A stretch of DNA of 64,000 nt, from the NCBI RefSeq assembly GCF_000010525.1, contig NC_009937.1, positions 2,361,501 to 2,425,500 of the forward strand, read 5' to 3'. Numbering within the stretch: position 1 is the stretch's first letter; every line of letters starts with the position of its first letter. Of the stretch, positions 11,183 through 34,767 are shown piece by piece. The notes under the pieces were generated by a model, which was not told the DNA's origin, made no database searches, and saw only the letters and a program-made list of their open reading frames with translations. The translations under genes were made by a program, and so were the position numbers. The stretch is from Azorhizobium caulinodans ORS 571. GTDB taxonomy: Bacteria > Pseudomonadota > Alphaproteobacteria > Rhizobiales > Xanthobacteraceae.

Positions 11183-11461
11183 GAGAACTCGCACGGGTTC
11201 ATCGAGGGCGCCCTTCGCACATATACGCGCCGTGACGCCGCAGACGACATGCTCTCGCTCTCATATCCCGTTGAAACATCATGGGGCGAGAGGCGCGGCG
11301 CGGTTCCCGACGGCCCGCCGGTGCTCCTAAATGTGCCGTAGGGGAATACGGCGTGCCATCTTTGCGCAAGCCTCGGCGCGCATACCGTTGAGCAATATAT
11401 AGGCACGATGAAACCGTTAGGATTGAGTCCCGGTCGGGCGCCGCCCATGAGGAACGAAGGC

Positions 11462-12004
11462 ATGCAACAGGAGGCGGTCGTTCGTCCATCCATCACTTTC
11501 AGGCTGCCGACCGACGCGGATTTTCCGGTTCTCGCGGAGATCCGCCGCGACCCGCACATGCAGGCCATGCTGATGGCCATTCCTGACCGCACCGATGACG
11601 CCGCCGTGCGGCAGTGGATCGAGCGCCGTGTCAGTGAGCCGAACGGCCTCTTCCGGGTTATCTGTGAAACGCAGGCGCAGGAAGCGCTGGGTTTCATCCA
11701 GATCAGCCAGGTCAATACCCGCGATCTTCATGGCTATGGCGCCGTTGCCTTGTCCCGCCGCTGCACCTTTCCCGGTGCGGCCCTGCTGGCCATGCGCGAG
11801 CTGATGCGGGCGGCCCGCGCCGATCTCGGCCTGCGCAAGCTCATGGCCGAGATCCGCAGCGACAATGTGGACGCCATCCGCATGAACGAGCTGTGCGGTT
11901 ACAAGGTCGTCGGCACGCTGGAAAGCCACTTTGCCGATGCCGACAACAAGAGGCACGATGTCCTGCTGCTGCAACGGGTTCTCGTCAGCCAGCGGACGAA
12001 CTGA
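11462..12004 (+). CDS. GNAT family N-acetyltransferase (RimJ/RimL-like)
   Basis: A protein of about 180 residues with the GNAT fold: an N-terminal RLPTDADFPVLAEIRRDP segment, a central beta region, and an acetyl-CoA-binding C-terminal half including LRKLMAEIRSDNVDAIRMNELCGYKVVG. It would transfer an acetyl or longer acyl group to an amine. ATG 11462 has AGGA eight bases upstream; in-frame ATGs also exist at 11447 and 11408. It heads a co-directional run (ACP, SDR, AMP-ligase, LuxE-like, LuxC-like). Within that cassette it might use an acyl-ACP or acyl-CoA made by its neighbours to acylate an amino compound, which is speculation. The 212-base region upstream of 11408 has an AT-rich stretch near 11390-11402 that could be part of its promoter. 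Confidence 0.78.
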   Translation: MQQEAVVRPSITFRLPTDADFPVLAEIRRDPHMQAMLMAIPDRTDDAAVRQWIERRVSEPNGLFRVICETQAQEALGFIQISQVNTRDLHGYGAVALSRRCTFPGAALLAMRELMRAARADLGLRKLMAEIRSDNVDAIRMNELCGYKVVGTLESHFADADNKRHDVLLLQRVLVSQRTN

Positions 12005-12043
12005 ACATTGATGCGGTGATTGCGAGGCCGCGCGGGGGGAAAG

Positions 12044-12280
12044 ATGGACGTTCAGGAAAAGGTTTTCGCCTCGTTCAAGGAAGCGTTCGATGTGGACGAC
12101 ACCATCGACCGTTCGCTCCTTGTCTATCGCGAGCTGCCCGAGTGGAACTCGATCGGCCATATGACCTTGGTTGCAGCTCTTGAGACCGAGTTCGATGCGA
12201 TGCTGGAGGCGGACGACATCCTCGCCATGAGCAGCTTCGACAAGGCGGTCGAGATCATGTCCAAATATCATTCCCATTGA
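12044..12280 (+). CDS. Acyl carrier protein
   Basis: A 78-residue acidic helical protein with the carrier-protein fold. The phosphopantetheine attachment serine is Ser36 in EWNSIGHMTLV, where NSIGHM replaces the more usual DSLxxV, followed by ALETEFDAMLEADDI. GGGGGAAAG lies just upstream of ATG 12044. It is 39 bases after the GNAT gene and 6 bases before the SDR gene, so it is surely co-transcribed with them. It is likely a dedicated carrier that holds the acyl chain activated by the AMP-ligase and reduced by the LuxE/LuxC-like pair, separate from the housekeeping AcpP. The holo form would need a phosphopantetheinyl transferase encoded elsewhere. Confidence 0.87.
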   Translation: MDVQEKVFASFKEAFDVDDTIDRSLLVYRELPEWNSIGHMTLVAALETEFDAMLEADDILAMSSFDKAVEIMSKYHSH

Positions 12281-12286
12281 TCTGCC

Positions 12287-13027
12287 ATGTGCATTGAGCT
12301 GACAGGGCGCGTCGCCCTCGTGACCGGCGCCTCCCGTGGCATCGGACTTGCCGTCGCGCGCCGTCTGGCCGATGCGGGCGCCACCGTCGTGATCAATGCG
12401 CGCCAGTTGGATGAGGGGCTGCTTGAGGGGTGGCCGCAGGATGTGCGGGAGCGCATCGTCCTGGAGGCGGGAGACGTGAGCGACCCGGAGGTCGCCCGGC
12501 GGATCGTCCGTGGCCTGTTCTCGCGCTTCAAGCGGCTCGACATTCTGGTCAACAACGCCGGCATCATGCGCGCCGCCATGATCGGCATGATCCCGGACGC
12601 GGACGTGCGTGCCACGCTCGACGTCAATGTCGGCAGCGCCATCCACATGACGCAGGCCGCTGCACGGCTGATGGCGCGCAGCGGCGGTGCCATCGTGAAC
12701 GTGGCCTCCATCGTCGGGCTTGAGGGCGCCTCCGGCCAGCTGGCCTATGCGGCGTCCAAGGCCGGCGTTGTGGGCGCCACACGCGCCGCCGCCAAGGAAC
12801 TGGCCCCGAAGGGCGTGCGGGTCAATGCAGTGGCACCGGGCTATATCGAAACGGACATGACCGCCAACCTCGGCGCGGAGGTGAAGGCGCAGACCCTGAA
12901 GACCATCGGTCTCGGCCGCACCGGCACGCCGGAGGATGTGGCCGATGTGGTGCTGTTCCTGTGCTCGGACCTCTCCCGCTACGTGACGGGACAGGTGCTG
13001 CGCGTGGACGGCGGCATGGTCATCTGA
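12287..13027 (+). CDS. SDR family 3-oxoacyl-ACP reductase-like (FabG-like)
   Basis: A 246-residue classical SDR with the cofactor motif TGASRGIG near residue 14, NNAG near 89, the catalytic Ser in VASIVGLEG and YAASK near 151, and C-terminal VTGQVLRVDGGMVI. These match FabG ketoreductases in length and motif order. Beside an acyl carrier protein it could reduce 3-oxoacyl-ACP or, alternatively, the aldehyde made by the LuxC-like enzyme. It starts 6 bases after the ACP stop and is followed after 15 bases by the AMP-ligase. Substrate is inferred from context. Confidence 0.88.
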   Translation: MCIELTGRVALVTGASRGIGLAVARRLADAGATVVINARQLDEGLLEGWPQDVRERIVLEAGDVSDPEVARRIVRGLFSRFKRLDILVNNAGIMRAAMIGMIPDADVRATLDVNVGSAIHMTQAAARLMARSGGAIVNVASIVGLEGASGQLAYAASKAGVVGATRAAAKELAPKGVRVNAVAPGYIETDMTANLGAEVKAQTLKTIGLGRTGTPEDVADVVLFLCSDLSRYVTGQVLRVDGGMVI

Positions 13028-13042
13028 TCGCGGGGCGCAGTC

Positions 13043-14491
13043 ATGACGGATCCCACATGCGCCGGACTGTTTCCCGAGCCGGACGGCACGTCGGATCGCC
13101 CGCTGGTGTGGGACGACCGCAGTGGCGTGTGGCGGACTGCCGATGACATCCGCGGCCTCAGCCTGCGCCTTGCCCAGCGGATTGAACGGCCGGGCAAGCA
13201 ACTCGTCTTTCTCCTCGCCACCAACGCGCCGGAGACGCTGGTCGGCCTGCTGGCAGCGGCAGCGGCCGGGCATGCGGTCGCCCTGATCGACCCCACCCTG
13301 TCGCCCGACAGGCTGGACGATCTGGTGCGGGACTATCGGCCGGAACTGGTGATCGGCACCGGAGCGGGTGCGCTCTGTCAGCCGGGAAATTGGAATGTCG
13401 CGCCGTCCGATGGGGTCTTCCCGGAGATCGCCGCGCGGATCGGGGCTACAGGCCCATCGGACATCCATCCGGACCTCGGGCTTCTGCTGCTAACCTCCGG
13501 CACCACGGGAAGCTCCAAATTCGTGCGCCTGTCCTGGGCTGCGGTGACGGCCAATGCCCGGCAGATTGCCGCGAGTCTTGCGATTACCCGCGAGAGCGTC
13601 GCGATTGCCCATCTGCCGTTCCATTACTCCTACGGCCTCTCCGTCATCACGTCCCATCTCGCTATGGGCGCGCGCATCGCCTTCATCGACGATGCGCTCA
13701 CCTCGCCGTCCTTCTGGGACAAGGTGGCGGACTGCGGCGGCAGCCATTTTCCGGGTGTGCCGTTCCATTACCGCGTCCTGACCCGGCTCGGCCTTGATCG
13801 CGCGCCGTCCAGCGTCACCTGCTTCACGCAGGCCGGCGGCCATCTCGAAACGCTGACCCAGACGACGATGATCGCTGTCTGCGAGAAGCGCGGGGCCCGT
13901 TTCTACGTGATGTACGGCCAGACGGAGGCGTCCCCGCGGATGTCCTGCGTGCCCAGTGACCGGCTGCTGGAGAAGCTCGGCTCCGTCGGGCTGGCAATGC
14001 CGGAGGGGCGTCTCAGCATCATCGATGGCGAGGGACGCCCACTGCCAGCGGGCGAGACCGGCGGCGTGGTCTATGAGGGTCCCAATGTGATGATGGGCTA
14101 TGCCACCTGCCGCACGGATCTCTCCCTTGGCGATACCACGGGCGGACGCATCGAGACGGGTGACCTCGGTCGTCTGGACGCTGAGGGCTTCCTGTTCCTG
14201 TCCGGACGGGCGGCGCGCTTCGCCAAGATCGCCGGATTGCGCCTCAGTCTCGACGACATGGAGCGGCAACTGGCCGGGCTCGGCACTGTCGCCTGCCTTG
14301 ATCTCGGGGAGCGGATCGCCGTGGTGTTCGAGGGCGATGTTCCGGAGGGCGCCAAGGAGCAGGCAAGAACCCTCGCGCTGGCCTGCAAGATTCCCGCAGC
14401 GACCTTCCAACTCAGGGCCTTGCCCGAGATCCCGCGCAAGACGAGCGGGAAGATGGATTATGCCCGTGCGAAGGAGGCGCTGAATGTTTGA
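13043..14491 (+). CDS. AMP-dependent acyl synthetase/ligase
   Basis: A 482-residue member of the ANL (acyl-CoA synthetase/adenylation) superfamily, a little shorter than typical acyl-CoA ligases. Motifs in order: the phosphate-binding loop LLTSGTTGSSKF (about residue 151), MYGQTEASPRMS (about 291), ETGDLGRLDAEGFLFLSGR (about 373) and the C-terminal catalytic Lys in PRKTSGKMDY. It would activate a carboxylic acid as acyl-AMP and pass it to CoA or, given the neighbouring carrier, to ACP. It overlaps the LuxE-like gene by eight bases, which suggests translational coupling. Chain length and acceptor are unknown. Confidence 0.9.
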   Translation: MTDPTCAGLFPEPDGTSDRPLVWDDRSGVWRTADDIRGLSLRLAQRIERPGKQLVFLLATNAPETLVGLLAAAAAGHAVALIDPTLSPDRLDDLVRDYRPELVIGTGAGALCQPGNWNVAPSDGVFPEIAARIGATGPSDIHPDLGLLLLTSGTTGSSKFVRLSWAAVTANARQIAASLAITRESVAIAHLPFHYSYGLSVITSHLAMGARIAFIDDALTSPSFWDKVADCGGSHFPGVPFHYRVLTRLGLDRAPSSVTCFTQAGGHLETLTQTTMIAVCEKRGARFYVMYGQTEASPRMSCVPSDRLLEKLGSVGLAMPEGRLSIIDGEGRPLPAGETGGVVYEGPNVMMGYATCRTDLSLGDTTGGRIETGDLGRLDAEGFLFLSGRAARFAKIAGLRLSLDDMERQLAGLGTVACLDLGERIAVVFEGDVPEGAKEQARTLALACKIPAATFQLRALPEIPRKTSGKMDYARAKEALNV

Positions 14492-15548
14492 GCCGCTCCT
14501 TCAGGCGTCGCCCTATTCGCTGCGGCAGGCGGAGAAGGAGGCGCGGCTGCTGCCAGGCCTAAACGAGCTGACGCGCTTCCACTATGAACACTGCGCCCCC
14601 TATGCCCACATCATCGATGCGGCCTGGGGCGGGCTCAAGGAGGCGCGGAGCATTGCCGACGTTCCCTTCCTGCCCGTGCAGATCTTCAAGCAGCTTGAAC
14701 TGTCCTCCACAGCGGCTCCCACGATGACGCTGCAATCGAGCGGCACGAGCGGGCAGACGCCGAGCCGCATCGTGGTGGATGCGGAAACGGCGGACCGGCA
14801 GTCGCGCGCGCTGGTGGCCACCTTCCGGCCCATTCTGGGGGACAGCCGGCTGCCCTTCCTCGCCATCGACACCAAGGACGTCATCAAGCCGAACAATCTG
14901 ACGGCGCGGGGCGCTGGCGTGCTCGGCATGATGAAGTTCGGCGCCAAGGCGACCTTCGCGCTCGCGCCCGATCTCGAAGTGGACGACGCCGTCATCCGCC
15001 GCTTCGTGGAGGCCAATCGGGGGCGTCCGTTCCTGATCTTCGGCTTCACTTTCCTCGTATGGACGAAGCTGTTCGACCATTATGCCGATGGTGAACTGGA
15101 TCTCTCCGATGCCATCCTCGTCCATTCCGGCGGCTGGAAGAAGCTCGAGGAAAAGAGGGTCTCCAACGCCGTCTTCCGTGCGTCTCTGAAGCGGCGCTTC
15201 AACGTCGAAAAGATCTATAATTTCTATGGTTTCGTGGAGCAGATCGGCTCCATGTTCGTGGAAGGCCCCGGTGGGCTGCTCTACCCGCCCAACTTCACCG
15301 ATGCGATCGTCCGCCGTCCCGGCAGTTGGGATGTGGCGCCGGAGGGGGAGGAGGGCGTTCTCCAGGTGGTGTCGCTTCTGCCCAAATCCTATCCCGGCCA
15401 CAGCGTGTTGACTGAGGATCGGGGAATGGTTGTCGCCACCGATGCTGGGCAGGATGGCCACTACGGCAAAGCGATCGTCGTGGCCGGCCGTGTTGCCAAG
15501 GCCGAGCTGCGCGGATGCAGCGACATCATCGCGGCCGAGGCGCGCTAG
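14484..15548 (+). CDS. LuxE-like acyl-protein synthetase
   Basis: A 354-residue protein of the LuxE acyl-protein synthetase family, the synthetase subunit of bacterial fatty acid reductase. An adenylate-forming loop QSSGTSGQTPSRI is visible near residue 84, YNFYGFVEQIGSMF lies near 244, and the C-terminus has RGCSD with Cys345 at the position of the cysteine that accepts the acyl group in Vibrio LuxE. Its length fits LuxE (about 370). It is coupled upstream to the AMP-ligase and is followed after 3 bases by the LuxC-like reductase, the same pairing as in lux operons. No luxA, luxB or luxD is present in the window, so the aldehyde product is probably used for something other than light. Confidence 0.9.
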   Translation: MFEPLLQASPYSLRQAEKEARLLPGLNELTRFHYEHCAPYAHIIDAAWGGLKEARSIADVPFLPVQIFKQLELSSTAAPTMTLQSSGTSGQTPSRIVVDAETADRQSRALVATFRPILGDSRLPFLAIDTKDVIKPNNLTARGAGVLGMMKFGAKATFALAPDLEVDDAVIRRFVEANRGRPFLIFGFTFLVWTKLFDHYADGELDLSDAILVHSGGWKKLEEKRVSNAVFRASLKRRFNVEKIYNFYGFVEQIGSMFVEGPGGLLYPPNFTDAIVRRPGSWDVAPEGEEGVLQVVSLLPKSYPGHSVLTEDRGMVVATDAGQDGHYGKAIVVAGRVAKAELRGCSDIIAAEAR

Positions 15549-15551
15549 GCC

Positions 15552-16787
15552 ATGGACAGGGCACAGAAGATCATTACCCAGTTCGGCCCCAATGGGCGCC
15601 GGTCCATGCTGGATGCGCAGGAACTCTGTGCGCGCCTCGACGCTGCGCGCCAGACGCTGCCGCATCCCTTCGAGGCGGAGCGCGTCCGGATCGTGGCTTC
15701 CGTCGCCGACGCGATCAGCCGGCACAAGGGCGAGCTGTCACCTGCCATCCGGTATCTCGGCTTCTGGACACGGGCGGCGGCGCTGAAGCTGCTGGAGCGC
15801 AGCTTCGCGGCCACCATCCCGCCCCACACGCTGCGCCGGCCGCGGGGAATGACTTTCCACCTGCCGCCGCGCAACGTCGAGACCATCTTCCTCTATTCGT
15901 GGATCCTGTCCTTCCTCGCCGGAAACGCCAACATCGTGCGCCTGCCGCAGGAGGTGAGCGGCACGGTCGGATGGGTTCTGGACCTGTTCCTTGCGGCGCT
16001 CGATGCGTCCAGCGAGCGGTCGCAGCTCTTCGTGCATTATCCGCTCGATACGGACCTCAGCGGGCTCATCTCCGCCCATAGCGATGCCAGGATGGTCTGG
16101 GGCGGTGATGCCAAGGTGGGGGCCTTCGAGCGCCTGCCGCTTAGGAATGGCGGCAAGTCGCTGTGGTTCGGCGACCGCTCTTCGCTCTGTCTTCTGGACG
16201 GCGCGGCCGTGGGTGCGCTCGGTCCGGCGGAGCGCGAGGCGCTGGCGCAGAAATTCTTCAACGACGTTTTCGTTTTCGACCAGATGGCCTGCTCCTCCCC
16301 GCAGGCGCTTTATGTGGTCGGCACGCCGACGGCGCATCTGGAAGGCGTCCGAAACCTGCTGGCGGCCATCGGCCACGTCGCGACGGCCAAGGGCGCCATC
16401 GGCGCGGCCGGGCACCAGATCGCCAAGATGACGGCGGCCTTCTCGGCTGCGGCGTCCGGGGATGTGATCGACTTGTCCTGGCGGGGGACGGAACTCACCA
16501 CCGTCGTCTCCGGCGTGGCCGAGCGTGTGGACCGGCGGATCGGCGGCGGCTTCCTCTCCGTGGTGTTCCTCCCCGATCTCGCTGCCCTCAACGGCGTGCT
16601 GCGGGAGCGGGACCAGACCATCACGCATTTCGGTTTCTCGGAAGACGCCATCCGCCTGGCGGCCGCGCGCAATCTCGGCCCTGGTGTGTCGCGCTGGACG
16701 CCCGTGGGCTCAGCGCTTGATTTCGACAGCGTGTGGGACGGGTACGACATCCTGTCCGAACTGACCCGCGCCTGCCGCGTCGGTTGA
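15552..16787 (+). CDS. LuxC-like acyl-CoA/acyl-protein reductase
   Basis: A 411-residue aldehyde-dehydrogenase-superfamily enzyme of the LuxC family, which reduces acyl groups delivered by LuxE to fatty aldehydes with NADPH. The catalytic cysteine is Cys247 in FDQMACSSPQ, the LuxC signature. An N-terminal helical region (RTLPHPF, ISRHKGELS) precedes the cofactor domain. It follows luxE by three bases and is the last gene of the cassette. The next 180 bases, up to the alanine racemase gene, show no clear terminator. With the ligase, ACP, SDR and GNAT it could form a pathway from a free acid to an aldehyde or an alcohol/amine derivative. The end product cannot be read from sequence. Confidence 0.91.
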   Translation: MDRAQKIITQFGPNGRRSMLDAQELCARLDAARQTLPHPFEAERVRIVASVADAISRHKGELSPAIRYLGFWTRAAALKLLERSFAATIPPHTLRRPRGMTFHLPPRNVETIFLYSWILSFLAGNANIVRLPQEVSGTVGWVLDLFLAALDASSERSQLFVHYPLDTDLSGLISAHSDARMVWGGDAKVGAFERLPLRNGGKSLWFGDRSSLCLLDGAAVGALGPAEREALAQKFFNDVFVFDQMACSSPQALYVVGTPTAHLEGVRNLLAAIGHVATAKGAIGAAGHQIAKMTAAFSAAASGDVIDLSWRGTELTTVVSGVAERVDRRIGGGFLSVVFLPDLAALNGVLRERDQTITHFGFSEDAIRLAAARNLGPGVSRWTPVGSALDFDSVWDGYDILSELTRACRVG

Positions 16788-32532: not shown

Positions 32533-34155
32533 TCAGTTGGCTTTCTTGATGTTCCAGAACAGCGGCGCCGGTCCCTGGATCAGCCCGGAAAGCGAGGTGC
32601 GGTAAAGGGCCGGAATGTAGTAGCTGCCGAGCGGCACGTAGGCCGCGTCGTCATAGGCGCGCTGCTGGATCTTTGTGGCGACCGCCTTCTGCTCGTCGAG
32701 CGTCTTGGCCGCGGCGAACTCCTCGCGCATCTTGATGATTTCCGGATCGTCCAGCCAGCCGAAGAAGCCGCCCTTCTTGCCACGCGTGTTGAGCATGGGG
32801 TTGACGAGGGGCGTCCAGACTTCGGCGCCGATCCAGTTGGTGAAGAACAGGCTCCATCCGCCTTCGGCCAGCGGGGCCTGGCTGGCGCGTCGGGTCACCA
32901 GGGTCTGCCAGTCCATGGGCTGGAGCGTGACCTTGAAGCCAGCATTGCGCAGGGCCTGAGCCGCCACCACCGGCTGGGGAGCGACCGTGATGACGTCGGT
33001 GGGCTGGAGGATGACGACGGGGGTGCCGTCATAGCCCGCCTCCTTCAGCAGCGCCTGCGCGGCCTTGATGTCGCCCGTGGCGAAGGTCTTGGGCGCGCCG
33101 GCATCCGTGGAGAGCGGGACGCCGCAGCCATACATGGACGGGCAGGCCGCGAAATATTCGGGATTGCCGATGAGGGCGGCGAGCACGTCGTTCTGCCCGA
33201 GCGCCAGCATGGCGGCGCGGCGGATCTTCACATTGTCGAAGGGCGGATAAAGGACGTTCATCTGCCCCATGGTCTGGGTGTTGAGGGGCGTCCAGCGGAA
33301 CTTCTTGATGTCCGGATTGGCTTCGGCCAGCGGCAGGAGGTCCACCGGCGGGGCCTCCATATAATCGATCTCGCCATTGTTGATGGCGTTCAGCGCCGTC
33401 TGCGCGTCGGGCATGTTCACCCATTCCACGCGGTCCACGTAGGCGACCTTGCCGCCGGCGGTCCAGCTCGGGGGCTCCTTGCGGGGCACGTATTTGTCGA
33501 ACTTCTCGTAGACCACCTTCACGCCGGGCTGGAACTCCGCCTTCACGAACTTGAAGGGGCCGGAGCCGATCTGGTCGGTGATGCTCTCGCTGGCGGGCGT
33601 CTCCGCGATGCGCTTCGGCATCATGAAGGGCACGACCGACGAGGGCTTGGCCAGCATCTCGAGCGTCGGGCCGAAGGGCTTCTTGAGCTTCAGAACAATG
33701 GTCTTGGCATCGGCGGCGGTGAGGCTCTCGGCGTAGTCCATGAGCATCTGGCCGCCGGTATCGCGCTGCGCCCAGCGCTTCAGGGAGGCGACGCAGTCTT
33801 CGGCGGTGACCGGCGTGCCATCGTGCCACAGCAGGCCGTCGCGCAGGGTGAGCGTGTAGGTCAGCCCGTCGTCGGAGACCTTGTACTCCGCCATCTGCGG
33901 CTGCGGTTTGTAATTGGCATCCATGGACAGCAGCGTGTCATAGATCATGTAGCCGTGATTGCGCGTGATGTGCGCGGTGGTGATGATCGGGTCCAGCACG
34001 CGCAGGCCCGAGTGCATCACCGCCCGGATGGTGGTGCCGGCCGCGTGGGCGGCGGGGGCGAGGGAGGACAGGCCAAGGGCAAGCACGGACGCCATGGTGA
34101 GCGTCTTCAGGGCCTTGCGCCGCGGGCCGGACACCTCGGTCTTGAACCAATTCAT
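32533..34155 (-). CDS. Peptide ABC transporter substrate-binding protein (family 5)
   Basis: A 540-residue family 5 extracellular solute-binding protein. The N-terminus carries a twin-Arg-like PRRKALKTL followed by a hydrophobic stretch and AHA, i.e. a signal peptide of about 38 residues. Family blocks are HITRNHGYMIYDTLLSMDANYKP, YTLTLRDGLLWHDGTPVTAEDCV (residues about 110-135) and NNGEIDYMEAPPVDLLP. It delivers peptides or peptide-like compounds to the DppBC-type permeases. GAGGGGA precedes ATG 34155. It is the first gene after a tandem glycine riboswitch, so its expression, and probably that of the whole seven-gene operon, responds to glycine. Confidence 0.94.
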   Translation of the reverse strand: MNWFKTEVSGPRRKALKTLTMASVLALGLSSLAPAAHAAGTTIRAVMHSGLRVLDPIITTAHITRNHGYMIYDTLLSMDANYKPQPQMAEYKVSDDGLTYTLTLRDGLLWHDGTPVTAEDCVASLKRWAQRDTGGQMLMDYAESLTAADAKTIVLKLKKPFGPTLEMLAKPSSVVPFMMPKRIAETPASESITDQIGSGPFKFVKAEFQPGVKVVYEKFDKYVPRKEPPSWTAGGKVAYVDRVEWVNMPDAQTALNAINNGEIDYMEAPPVDLLPLAEANPDIKKFRWTPLNTQTMGQMNVLYPPFDNVKIRRAAMLALGQNDVLAALIGNPEYFAACPSMYGCGVPLSTDAGAPKTFATGDIKAAQALLKEAGYDGTPVVILQPTDVITVAPQPVVAAQALRNAGFKVTLQPMDWQTLVTRRASQAPLAEGGWSLFFTNWIGAEVWTPLVNPMLNTRGKKGGFFGWLDDPEIIKMREEFAAAKTLDEQKAVATKIQQRAYDDAAYVPLGSYYIPALYRTSLSGLIQGPAPLFWNIKKAN

Positions 34156-34297
34156 GCAACAGTCCCCTCGGATCGGAATGGTCGGATGGTCAGGAAGGTG
34201 AGAGCGCCGGTCTTGTGTCTTGTCTGGCCTCTTGCCGTGCGACGTGTGCCCGCCACGGGGCGGCGCGGTGGCCGGCCCGTGCGATGAAGGTCGCCCC

Positions 34298-34469
34298 GTC
34301 CGTTCTGGGCCTGAGAGATTCACCGCTGACGCGGCTTGCTCCTTCGGCGGACCGGCAGGGCCGGTCACTCTCCGGACGTCTTCTGGCAGGCACCGGTCCT
34401 TTGACCTGAGAGTTTCCGGGGCGGTTGCTCCTTCGGTGCCGGATCGATCCGGTCTCTCCCGGTGCTGCC
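34298..34469 (-). promoter_or_regulatory. Tandem glycine riboswitch
   Basis: Read on the minus strand, two successive aptamers match the glycine (gcvT) riboswitch consensus. Aptamer I (34469-34386) has GGGAGAGACC, then CACCGAAGGAGCAA, then AAACTCTCAGGTCAAAGGAC, closed by a long P1 stem (GGCAGCACCGG with CCGGTGCC). After a short linker, aptamer II (34378-34298) has CCGGAGAGTGACC, CGCCGAAGGAGCAAGC and TCTCTCAGGCCCAGAACGGAC, closed by GTCCG/CGGAC. Such tandem RNAs bind glycine and usually switch expression of glycine-use genes. The expression platform should lie in the 142 bases before the binding-protein ATG; I see no clear terminator with a T run there, so the mode (on or off, transcription or translation) is open. 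Confidence 0.93.
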
Positions 34470-34767
34470 ATTCACGTGAAGGAGCCTAGCGCTCTCAACG
34501 AAATGCACAATAACTACGCGTGGTGAAAAAATAGCCGGTATACCGCAGGCCGACCGCTCCCCCGCCCAATGCGCAGGCAAACGGGCATCCTGCCATCATT
34601 CGGTGTGGTTGGGTGGGGCGCAATTTGAAGATGTTTTGCCGCTCAAATGCGAGGCGAGCGAGGGCTTCACCGGTGCGACATTTCCGGCGCGGCGGCCGGT
34701 CGTTTGTTGGGATAGGCCGGTGAGGGGATGCCTCCCCTTTGGGCGGGAGCGGGGCGTGCGGAAGCCG
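34470..34767. other. Intergenic region upstream of glycine riboswitch
   Basis: No gene supported. The part next to the riboswitch (34490-34545) is AT-rich and should contain the minus-strand promoter, although no convincing -35/-10 pair stands out. A six-base stem with a four-base loop at 34723-34738 lies just after the end of the TauE-like gene and might weakly terminate it. Confidence 0.4.

Follow-up and report, generated by a model that had tools for sequence, protein, structure and literature searches.

A window of 64,000 nucleotides from the nitrogen-fixing soil bacterium Azorhizobium caulinodans ORS 571 (positions 2361501-2425500 of a single 5369772-base contig) was analyzed, and all cassette positions given below are counted within this window. 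At 11462-16787 it holds six intact open reading frames (ORFs) on the + strand, encoding a GNAT acyltransferase, an acyl carrier protein (ACP), a FabG-like short-chain dehydrogenase/reductase (SDR), an ANL ligase and homologues of LuxE and LuxC. The last five form a core that is common to this cassette and to group II flagellin glycosylation islands, and the cassette most probably serves glycan acylation. The features of the six genes are as follows:

11462-12004, + strand: GNAT acyltransferase, 180 amino acids (aa); Pfam Acetyltransf_3, 4.6e-13; alternative ATG at 11408
12044-12280, + strand: ACP, 78 aa; the start at 12044 puts the serine at position 36; alternative TTG at 12020
12287-13027, + strand: FabG-like SDR, 246 aa; Pfam adh_short_C2, 2.9e-64
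13043-14491, + strand: ANL (AMP-forming) ligase, 482 aa; Pfam AMP-binding, 1e-42
14484-15548, + strand: LuxE-like acyl-protein synthetase, 354 aa; PF04443, 6.6e-41; Cys345
15552-16787, + strand: LuxC-like acyl thioester reductase, 411 aa; PF05893, 3.3e-26; Cys247

The ligase and luxE genes overlap by 8 bases, and 3 bases separate luxE from luxC. No promoter-like site was found at the cassette, and terminator-like sites are no more frequent there than expected by chance. The GNAT gave no match in a sequence search against solved protein chains; its structure, predicted from a 10-row alignment, has a mean predicted local distance difference test (pLDDT) score of 85.8, and it scores 40.4 bits against the PseH model TIGR03585, short of the cut-off of 93.1. 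The ACP has no Pfam match, while its 24-row profile matches solved ACPs (best 2.7e-06) and its predicted structure comprises four helices (mean pLDDT 93.9). Ser36, which by family rule we take to be the phosphopantetheine attachment site, is invariant in 28/28 aligned rows. The SDR scores 249.2 bits against the 3-oxoacyl-ACP reductase model TIGR01830, below the FabG membership cut-off of 297.75. The ligase ORF carries LLLTSGTTGSSK, presumably the P-loop, and a C-terminal PRKTSGK, which we likewise assume to be an ANL motif; its profile matches many solved adenylating enzymes, which do not distinguish its substrate.

The LuxE profile matches the solved LuxE 7xc6_E (1.2e-26), and LuxC weakly matches the solved LuxC 7xc6_A (0.047). 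The catalytic cysteines of both proteins align with those of the bioluminescence enzymes: Cys345 of LuxE is a cysteine in 30/30 selected rows and Cys247 of LuxC in 21/21, each selection including three true lux loci (L145-L147, in which LuxE scores above the lux cut-off and the neighboring ORFs are sized like luxC, D, A and B). The preliminary description of this DNA had recognized six packed genes of these families, the overlap, the three-base gap and intact catalytic residues, and the ORFs, Pfam matches, ACP profile and alignments agree with it on each point. No luxA, luxB or luxD was found within the cassette or immediately behind luxC, the only places covered by the search. The NCBIfam cut-offs for long-chain LuxE and LuxC were missed (40.3/550 and 21.4/750 bits, respectively), and in a LuxE tree (12/28 inner branches weakly supported, four long rows of uncertain placement) the window LuxE groups with glycan-type rows and is separated by a long branch from the lux-operon LuxE. 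A remnant of a light-emission system was therefore rejected.

Comparison of all six genes with those of two other Azorhizobium species gave ratios of nonsynonymous to synonymous substitutions (dN/dS, Nei-Gojobori method) of 0.05-0.28 in 12/12 comparisons, with no internal stop; dS reached 3.4 for the ACP and 1.8 for one GNAT pair, and is near saturation there. Because they are under purifying selection, the cassette ORFs are not chance frames. All six genes are kept in three Azorhizobium species, LuxE being the most conserved of them (80% and 84% identity). LuxE is present once in the genome. A second, weak LuxC-family match (30.3 bits; genome 637948-638361, L002) lies inside an 846-aa open frame, and the LuxC family also matches 9/14 control genomes.

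A search with the window LuxE among relatives gave matches in 3/61 genomes, i.e. the genome itself and two congeners; close relatives among the named records were Azorhizobium oxalatiphilum and A. doebereinerae. A LuxE profile matched 10/385 genomes of the class at E ≤1e-80 (own genome included; 19/385 at 1e-3) and 22/398 genomes of the phylum (33/398 at 1e-3). Scanning of named genome contigs yielded 8 loci and that of plasmid records 27 loci, of which 6 were inspected closely. Homologues of the six proteins were then sought in 44 loci plus 12 further loci. The exact single-strand order ACP-SDR-ANL-LuxE-LuxC was found in 18/56 loci: 14 of the 44 (L008, L009, L011, L012, L014, L042, L043, L049, L086, L090, L091, L093, L094 and L095) and four of the 12 (L151, L152, L153 and L154). 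In several of these the ORF limits are those of the longest open frame, which extends into the neighboring gene, and L011 and L012 are near-copies. The other loci show rearrangement or fusion, have no SDR or ACP or miss some other part, are cut by the contig end or contain other LuxE types; three of the 12 further loci are lux loci. In Ponticoccus, LuxC lies apart from the set on the opposite strand, and Nonomuraea also carries a copy. An in-frame stop was reported in the LuxE match of two genomes of one genus (L068 and L069), perhaps owing to a match-edge effect, phase variation or decay.

The complete six-gene order with a PseH-like GNAT in first position occurs in five loci (L086, L095, L151, L152 and L154). 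In L086 the core is preceded by PseB, PseC, PseF, a heptosyltransferase-like protein, PseI, PseG and the PseH-like GNAT, and is followed by two glycosyltransferases, one unscanned ORF and a PseD-like flagellin modification protein (70.1 bits against a cut-off of 670). PseG is present in L151 and L152 and a PseG-like protein in L154 (134.6 bits, missing the cut-off of 153.55); in these three loci the PseH-like GNAT stands directly before the ACP, and such a protein is also present in L095. The PseH-like proteins of the five islands score 64.5-80.4 bits and thus also fall under the PseH cut-off, which would suit a changed acyl donor. Among 32 genomes, NeuB lies within ~7 kb of LuxE in 8 and anywhere in the genome in 23; at least 6/25 genomes have a GT2 match no farther than ~8 kb from LuxE.

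In the Aeromonas group II flagellin glycosylation island, these five enzymes are encoded in an identical order immediately behind a GNAT gene (pseH), and in A. piscicola AH-3 the genes orf1-orf2-orf3-luxE-luxC lie downstream of pseH (PMC7874193). Genes of the same kinds (acp, luxE, luxC, caiC and fabG) are reported from enterobacterial flagellin glycosylation islands (PMC4875605); they sit inside the islands, whereas the Azorhizobium cassette stands outside any, and the likeness is one of gene kinds. Compared with the group II island, the Azorhizobium cassette has no NeuB in its genome and no glycosyltransferase after luxC, and its GNAT is not a PseH by cut-off. The preliminary description had proposed a possibly undescribed lipid- or signal-making pathway and asked whether the gene order is conserved. 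The order recurs in other genomes (the core in 18/56 loci, all six genes with a PseH-like GNAT in five), and "undescribed" does not hold, given the Aeromonas and enterobacterial islands (PMC7874193, PMC4875605) and the core found behind PseG-like and PseH-like genes, in a pse island and, by annotation, in an exopolysaccharide cluster. Membership of the genes in a known polysaccharide pathway had been named as a ground for refutation; the core in glycan islands elsewhere comes near to this, except that no adjoining glycan genes are seen here.

Other glycan settings, with other acyltransferases, were also found. In Deinococcus NW-56 the core is flanked by exopolysaccharide glycosyltransferases and an acetyltransferase (record annotation). 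According to their annotation, two Rhizobium plasmids (L045:6365-14245 and L046:4368-12245) place two transketolase-like genes, a glycosyltransferase gene and one for an LpxA-like acyltransferase beside a set of ACP, ligase, LuxE and LuxC; the transketolase might lengthen the aldehyde. A hexapeptide-repeat protein takes the place of the GNAT in L010, L011 and L013. L093 encodes a hexapeptide protein ahead of its ACP and, behind LuxC, a DegT aminotransferase together with a glycosyltransferase; a PglD-like hexapeptide protein stands after LuxC in L048, and a GNAT before the SDR in L087. The scanned flanks of L049, L090 and L091 contain a transporter, GT2, a methyltransferase, a polysaccharide deacetylase and an HpcH/HpaI aldolase. 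In L091 (6263-7889) the aldolase and the deacetylase adjoin LuxC, possibly reflecting another use of the aldehyde. Finally, L149 (4831-10115) encodes ACP, ANL, an iron alcohol dehydrogenase (ADH) and a fused LuxE-LuxC protein (825 aa) in a sugar cluster, after a glycosyltransferase and with a polysaccharide deacetylase two genes beyond the fused gene.

Gene content and order, conserved active sites, selection and the repeated occurrence of the core together with glycan genes and acyltransferases of the sugar type are the observed basis on which we regard the six genes as probably a portable module for acyl supply and acyl transfer to a surface glycan. In the proposed scheme, LuxE would activate a short carboxylic acid, e.g. 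one carboxyl of malate, and hand it on via its own cysteine to LuxC, which would convert the acyl thioester to an aldehyde. From the aldehyde (or a keto group) the SDR would form an alcohol. The ANL ligase would charge the dedicated ACP with the resulting hydroxy acid and, as the last step, the GNAT would transfer the acyl group from the ACP to an amino sugar, at its amino group. All six proteins would thus be used in one line. The earlier idea of an acid that is put on the carrier, reduced and handed to a further step is supported.

A tetronate-type pathway brings together an ACP, an ANL, LuxE/LuxC, an alcohol-forming dehydrogenase and an acyltransferase, and these are found together in the Azorhizobium cassette too. 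The dehydrogenase is an SDR in Azorhizobium and an iron ADH, beside the fused LuxE-LuxC, in the tetronate-like locus L149; with its iron ADH next to LuxC, L149 has an alcohol dehydrogenase placed as the SDR is in the cassette. The pathway for Vibrio cholerae tetronate was reportedly proposed by Morona in 1995, and the products of VC0248-VC0252 presumably act as ACP, ligase, ADH and LuxC-like proteins. The V. cholerae O1 antigen carries tetronate on perosamine, the tetronate genes being VC0248-VC0252, and is lost without WbeL (PMC3441752). There, likewise, an amino sugar receives a short hydroxy-acyl group made for it; the V. cholerae genes belong to an O-antigen locus, and the likeness is one of gene roles. 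By analogy, the cassette would work like the acyl part of the group II flagellin islands and of tetronate-type O-antigen loci.

As the acyl group we prefer a C4 dihydroxyacyl, tetronyl-like (3-deoxy-glycero-tetronic, as in V. cholerae O1), which we consider a possibility rather than a probability. The flagellin glycan of A. piscicola AH-3 contains a 376.14-Da pseudaminic derivative and an unexplained 102-Da moiety (PMC7874193). The computed mass of a Pse5Ac7Ac residue is 316.127; exchange of one acetyl for C4H6O3, which has a mass of 102.032, raises it to 376.148. By mass arithmetic only, a C4 dihydroxyacyl would therefore fit both moieties. The flagellin of A. caviae Sch3 carries plain Pse5Ac7Ac (PMC9290775) and that of A. 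hydrophila AH-1 is likewise described with a single pseudaminic derivative; Aeromonas strains with a single flagellin sugar are assigned to group I or III islands (PMC7874193). Among the matches listed in a literature search on pseudaminic acid and flagellin, dihydroxybutyryl was not mentioned, and among those for Azorhizobium caulinodans with flagellin glycosylation or LuxE/LuxC there was no report of the cassette.

Several observations weigh against the module, its glycan role or the C4 group. The Aeromonas deletion spans fgi-1 to fgi-12 and not luxC or the core (PMC7874193), so the role of the core in Aeromonas is untouched by that mutant. From the grouping of single-sugar strains, not from sequence, Sch3 should lack the core, and every C4H6O3 isomer fits the masses equally. 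NeuB has 0 matches in the Azorhizobium genome and none in two congeners; pseudaminic acid synthesized in the usual way is thus excluded as the acceptor, and a pseudaminic acid pathway in this genome was rejected. The window GNAT shares only 17-21% identity with the PseH-like rows, and in view of this and of the missed PseH cut-off it may have been recruited independently to its place before the ACP. The scanned flanks of L049, L090 and L091 contain no acyltransferase, no ACP was found among the homologues in L010, and among 59 chosen flank proteins of seven isolated cassettes no glycosyltransferase was found in the 25 commonest of 85 Pfam families. The latter tally omitted hexapeptide proteins, which had been scanned before, and the remaining 60 families lie outside the listed 25.

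This last result bears on a different reading, in which the cassette makes a free lipid or signal (a fatty aldehyde, an alcohol or a GNAT-made N-acyl amine) unconnected with glycans. The cassette neighbors are an ABC-transport operon and, downstream of luxC, an alanine racemase gene followed by a DadA-like gene; the latter two could belong to such a pathway. As stated in the preliminary description, no glycosyltransferase or polysaccharide genes were seen next to the cassette (the alanine racemase gene, not a glycosyltransferase gene, follows luxC), and the seven isolated cassettes stand amid varied genes, as judged from the 25 commonest flank families. However, the window flank genes are mostly absent beside the other cassettes examined (L008-L011, L013 and L014). 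None of 11 window flank proteins has a match beside the cassettes of L008, L009, L010, L011 and L013, and in L014 only the transport permease and ATPase match (33% and 43% identity), so that a similar ABC operon may stand upstream there too. A functional link to the alanine racemase and DadA-like genes was rejected, since neither was matched beside six other cassettes. The recurrence of a dedicated ACP and sugar-type acyltransferases with the core, and of the core within glycan clusters, also argues against a free lipid or signal, which we hold to be unlikely. Because the flank genes differ and no glycosyltransferase is among the listed flank families, the cassette in these bacteria seems to stand alone and to move.

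Amino sugars with N-(3-hydroxybutyryl) groups occur in flagellin glycans. The SDR, FabG-like with its 249.2 bits against TIGR01830, could reduce a beta-keto acyl-ACP to 3-hydroxybutyryl-ACP for N-acylation, LuxE and LuxC forming a side step. LuxE and LuxC would then have no role, even though none of the other five proteins is as conserved as LuxE, and a hydroxybutyryl swap on pseudaminic acid computes to 360.153, not 376.14, which makes the proposal improbable. In light-emitting bacteria, LuxE and LuxC use fatty acids, and the module could add a long-chain fatty acyl group, giving a liposugar. The Aeromonas core genes appear in print as "fatty acid" genes (PMC7874193), and both island papers propose a liposugar component from the gene names (PMC4875605, PMC7874193). 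With both long-chain cut-offs missed and no fatty acyl mass in the AH-3 glycan as described (PMC7874193), we judge a long-chain group quite unlikely. Decay of what was once a glycosylation island, as the isolated position and the genome without NeuB could suggest, is very improbable and was rejected on the dN/dS values, all six genes being retained without internal stop in three Azorhizobium species.

For acylation of a surface glycan by the module, an amino sugar belonging to a DegT/GNAT/TPR-GT41 sugar locus elsewhere in the Azorhizobium genome is the best candidate acceptor. Two further GNATs encoded in the genome resemble the window GNAT (51% and 43% identity; 41% in another comparison for the sugar-locus GNAT) more closely than the PseH-like proteins do. 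One of the two sits in the sugar locus (genome 3981841-3998104; L108 and L114), together with TPR-GT41, an FkbM methyltransferase, a DegT aminotransferase, a CmcI-type methyltransferase, WbqC, PhyH, a further methyltransferase, GT2, an RmlC-like epimerase and a nucleotidyltransferase. Similar loci exist in both congeners, as judged from GNAT matches, ORF positions and sequence starts; TPR-GT41 was seen in the own genome only, and three genes of the L166 copy were confirmed by scan. The genome has five matches to PseC-type aminotransferases, all under the cut-off, one of them in the sugar locus with the GNAT, and four flagellin-type genes lie elsewhere. The sugar locus could serve O-glycosylation of a protein (flagellin?) with no nonulosonate involved. 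The second related GNAT (51% identity) is encoded at genome 3232233-3232718 (-), with no recognized glycan genes nearby, its neighbors being unscanned.

Two further features of the window were noted: a glycine riboswitch aptamer at 34384-34471 (-), 69.6 bits, just ahead of the ORF at 32533-34368 (-), and a histone-deacetylase-domain protein encoded at 1372-2403 (PF00850, 2.1e-60).

The cassette is neither a lux system nor a pse island. What is new here is that a cassette known from sugar islands stands alone, with a non-PseH GNAT and in a genome that has no nonulosonate synthase. The island papers log luxE and luxC as "fatty acid" genes and leave their product undetermined (PMC7874193, PMC4875605), and a free-standing copy in a plant symbiont that is not a pathogen, away from glycosyltransferases and pse genes, would allow the acyl group to be made and identified by itself. 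We put forward, tentatively, a horizontally moving and self-contained "acyl pen", whose LuxE/LuxC and SDR would turn a carboxyl of a C4 diacid into an alcohol, whose ANL ligase and private ACP would hold the dihydroxybutyrate and which, through an exchangeable GNAT, PseH-like or hexapeptide acyltransferase, would write on any amino sugar of the host. If true, this would explain the 376- and 102-Da moieties of Aeromonas flagellin and would give a plant symbiont a surface sugar of tetronyl-like type. The findings suggest that many proteins related to the light-emission enzymes form a toolkit for glycans in which the acyltransferase can be exchanged.

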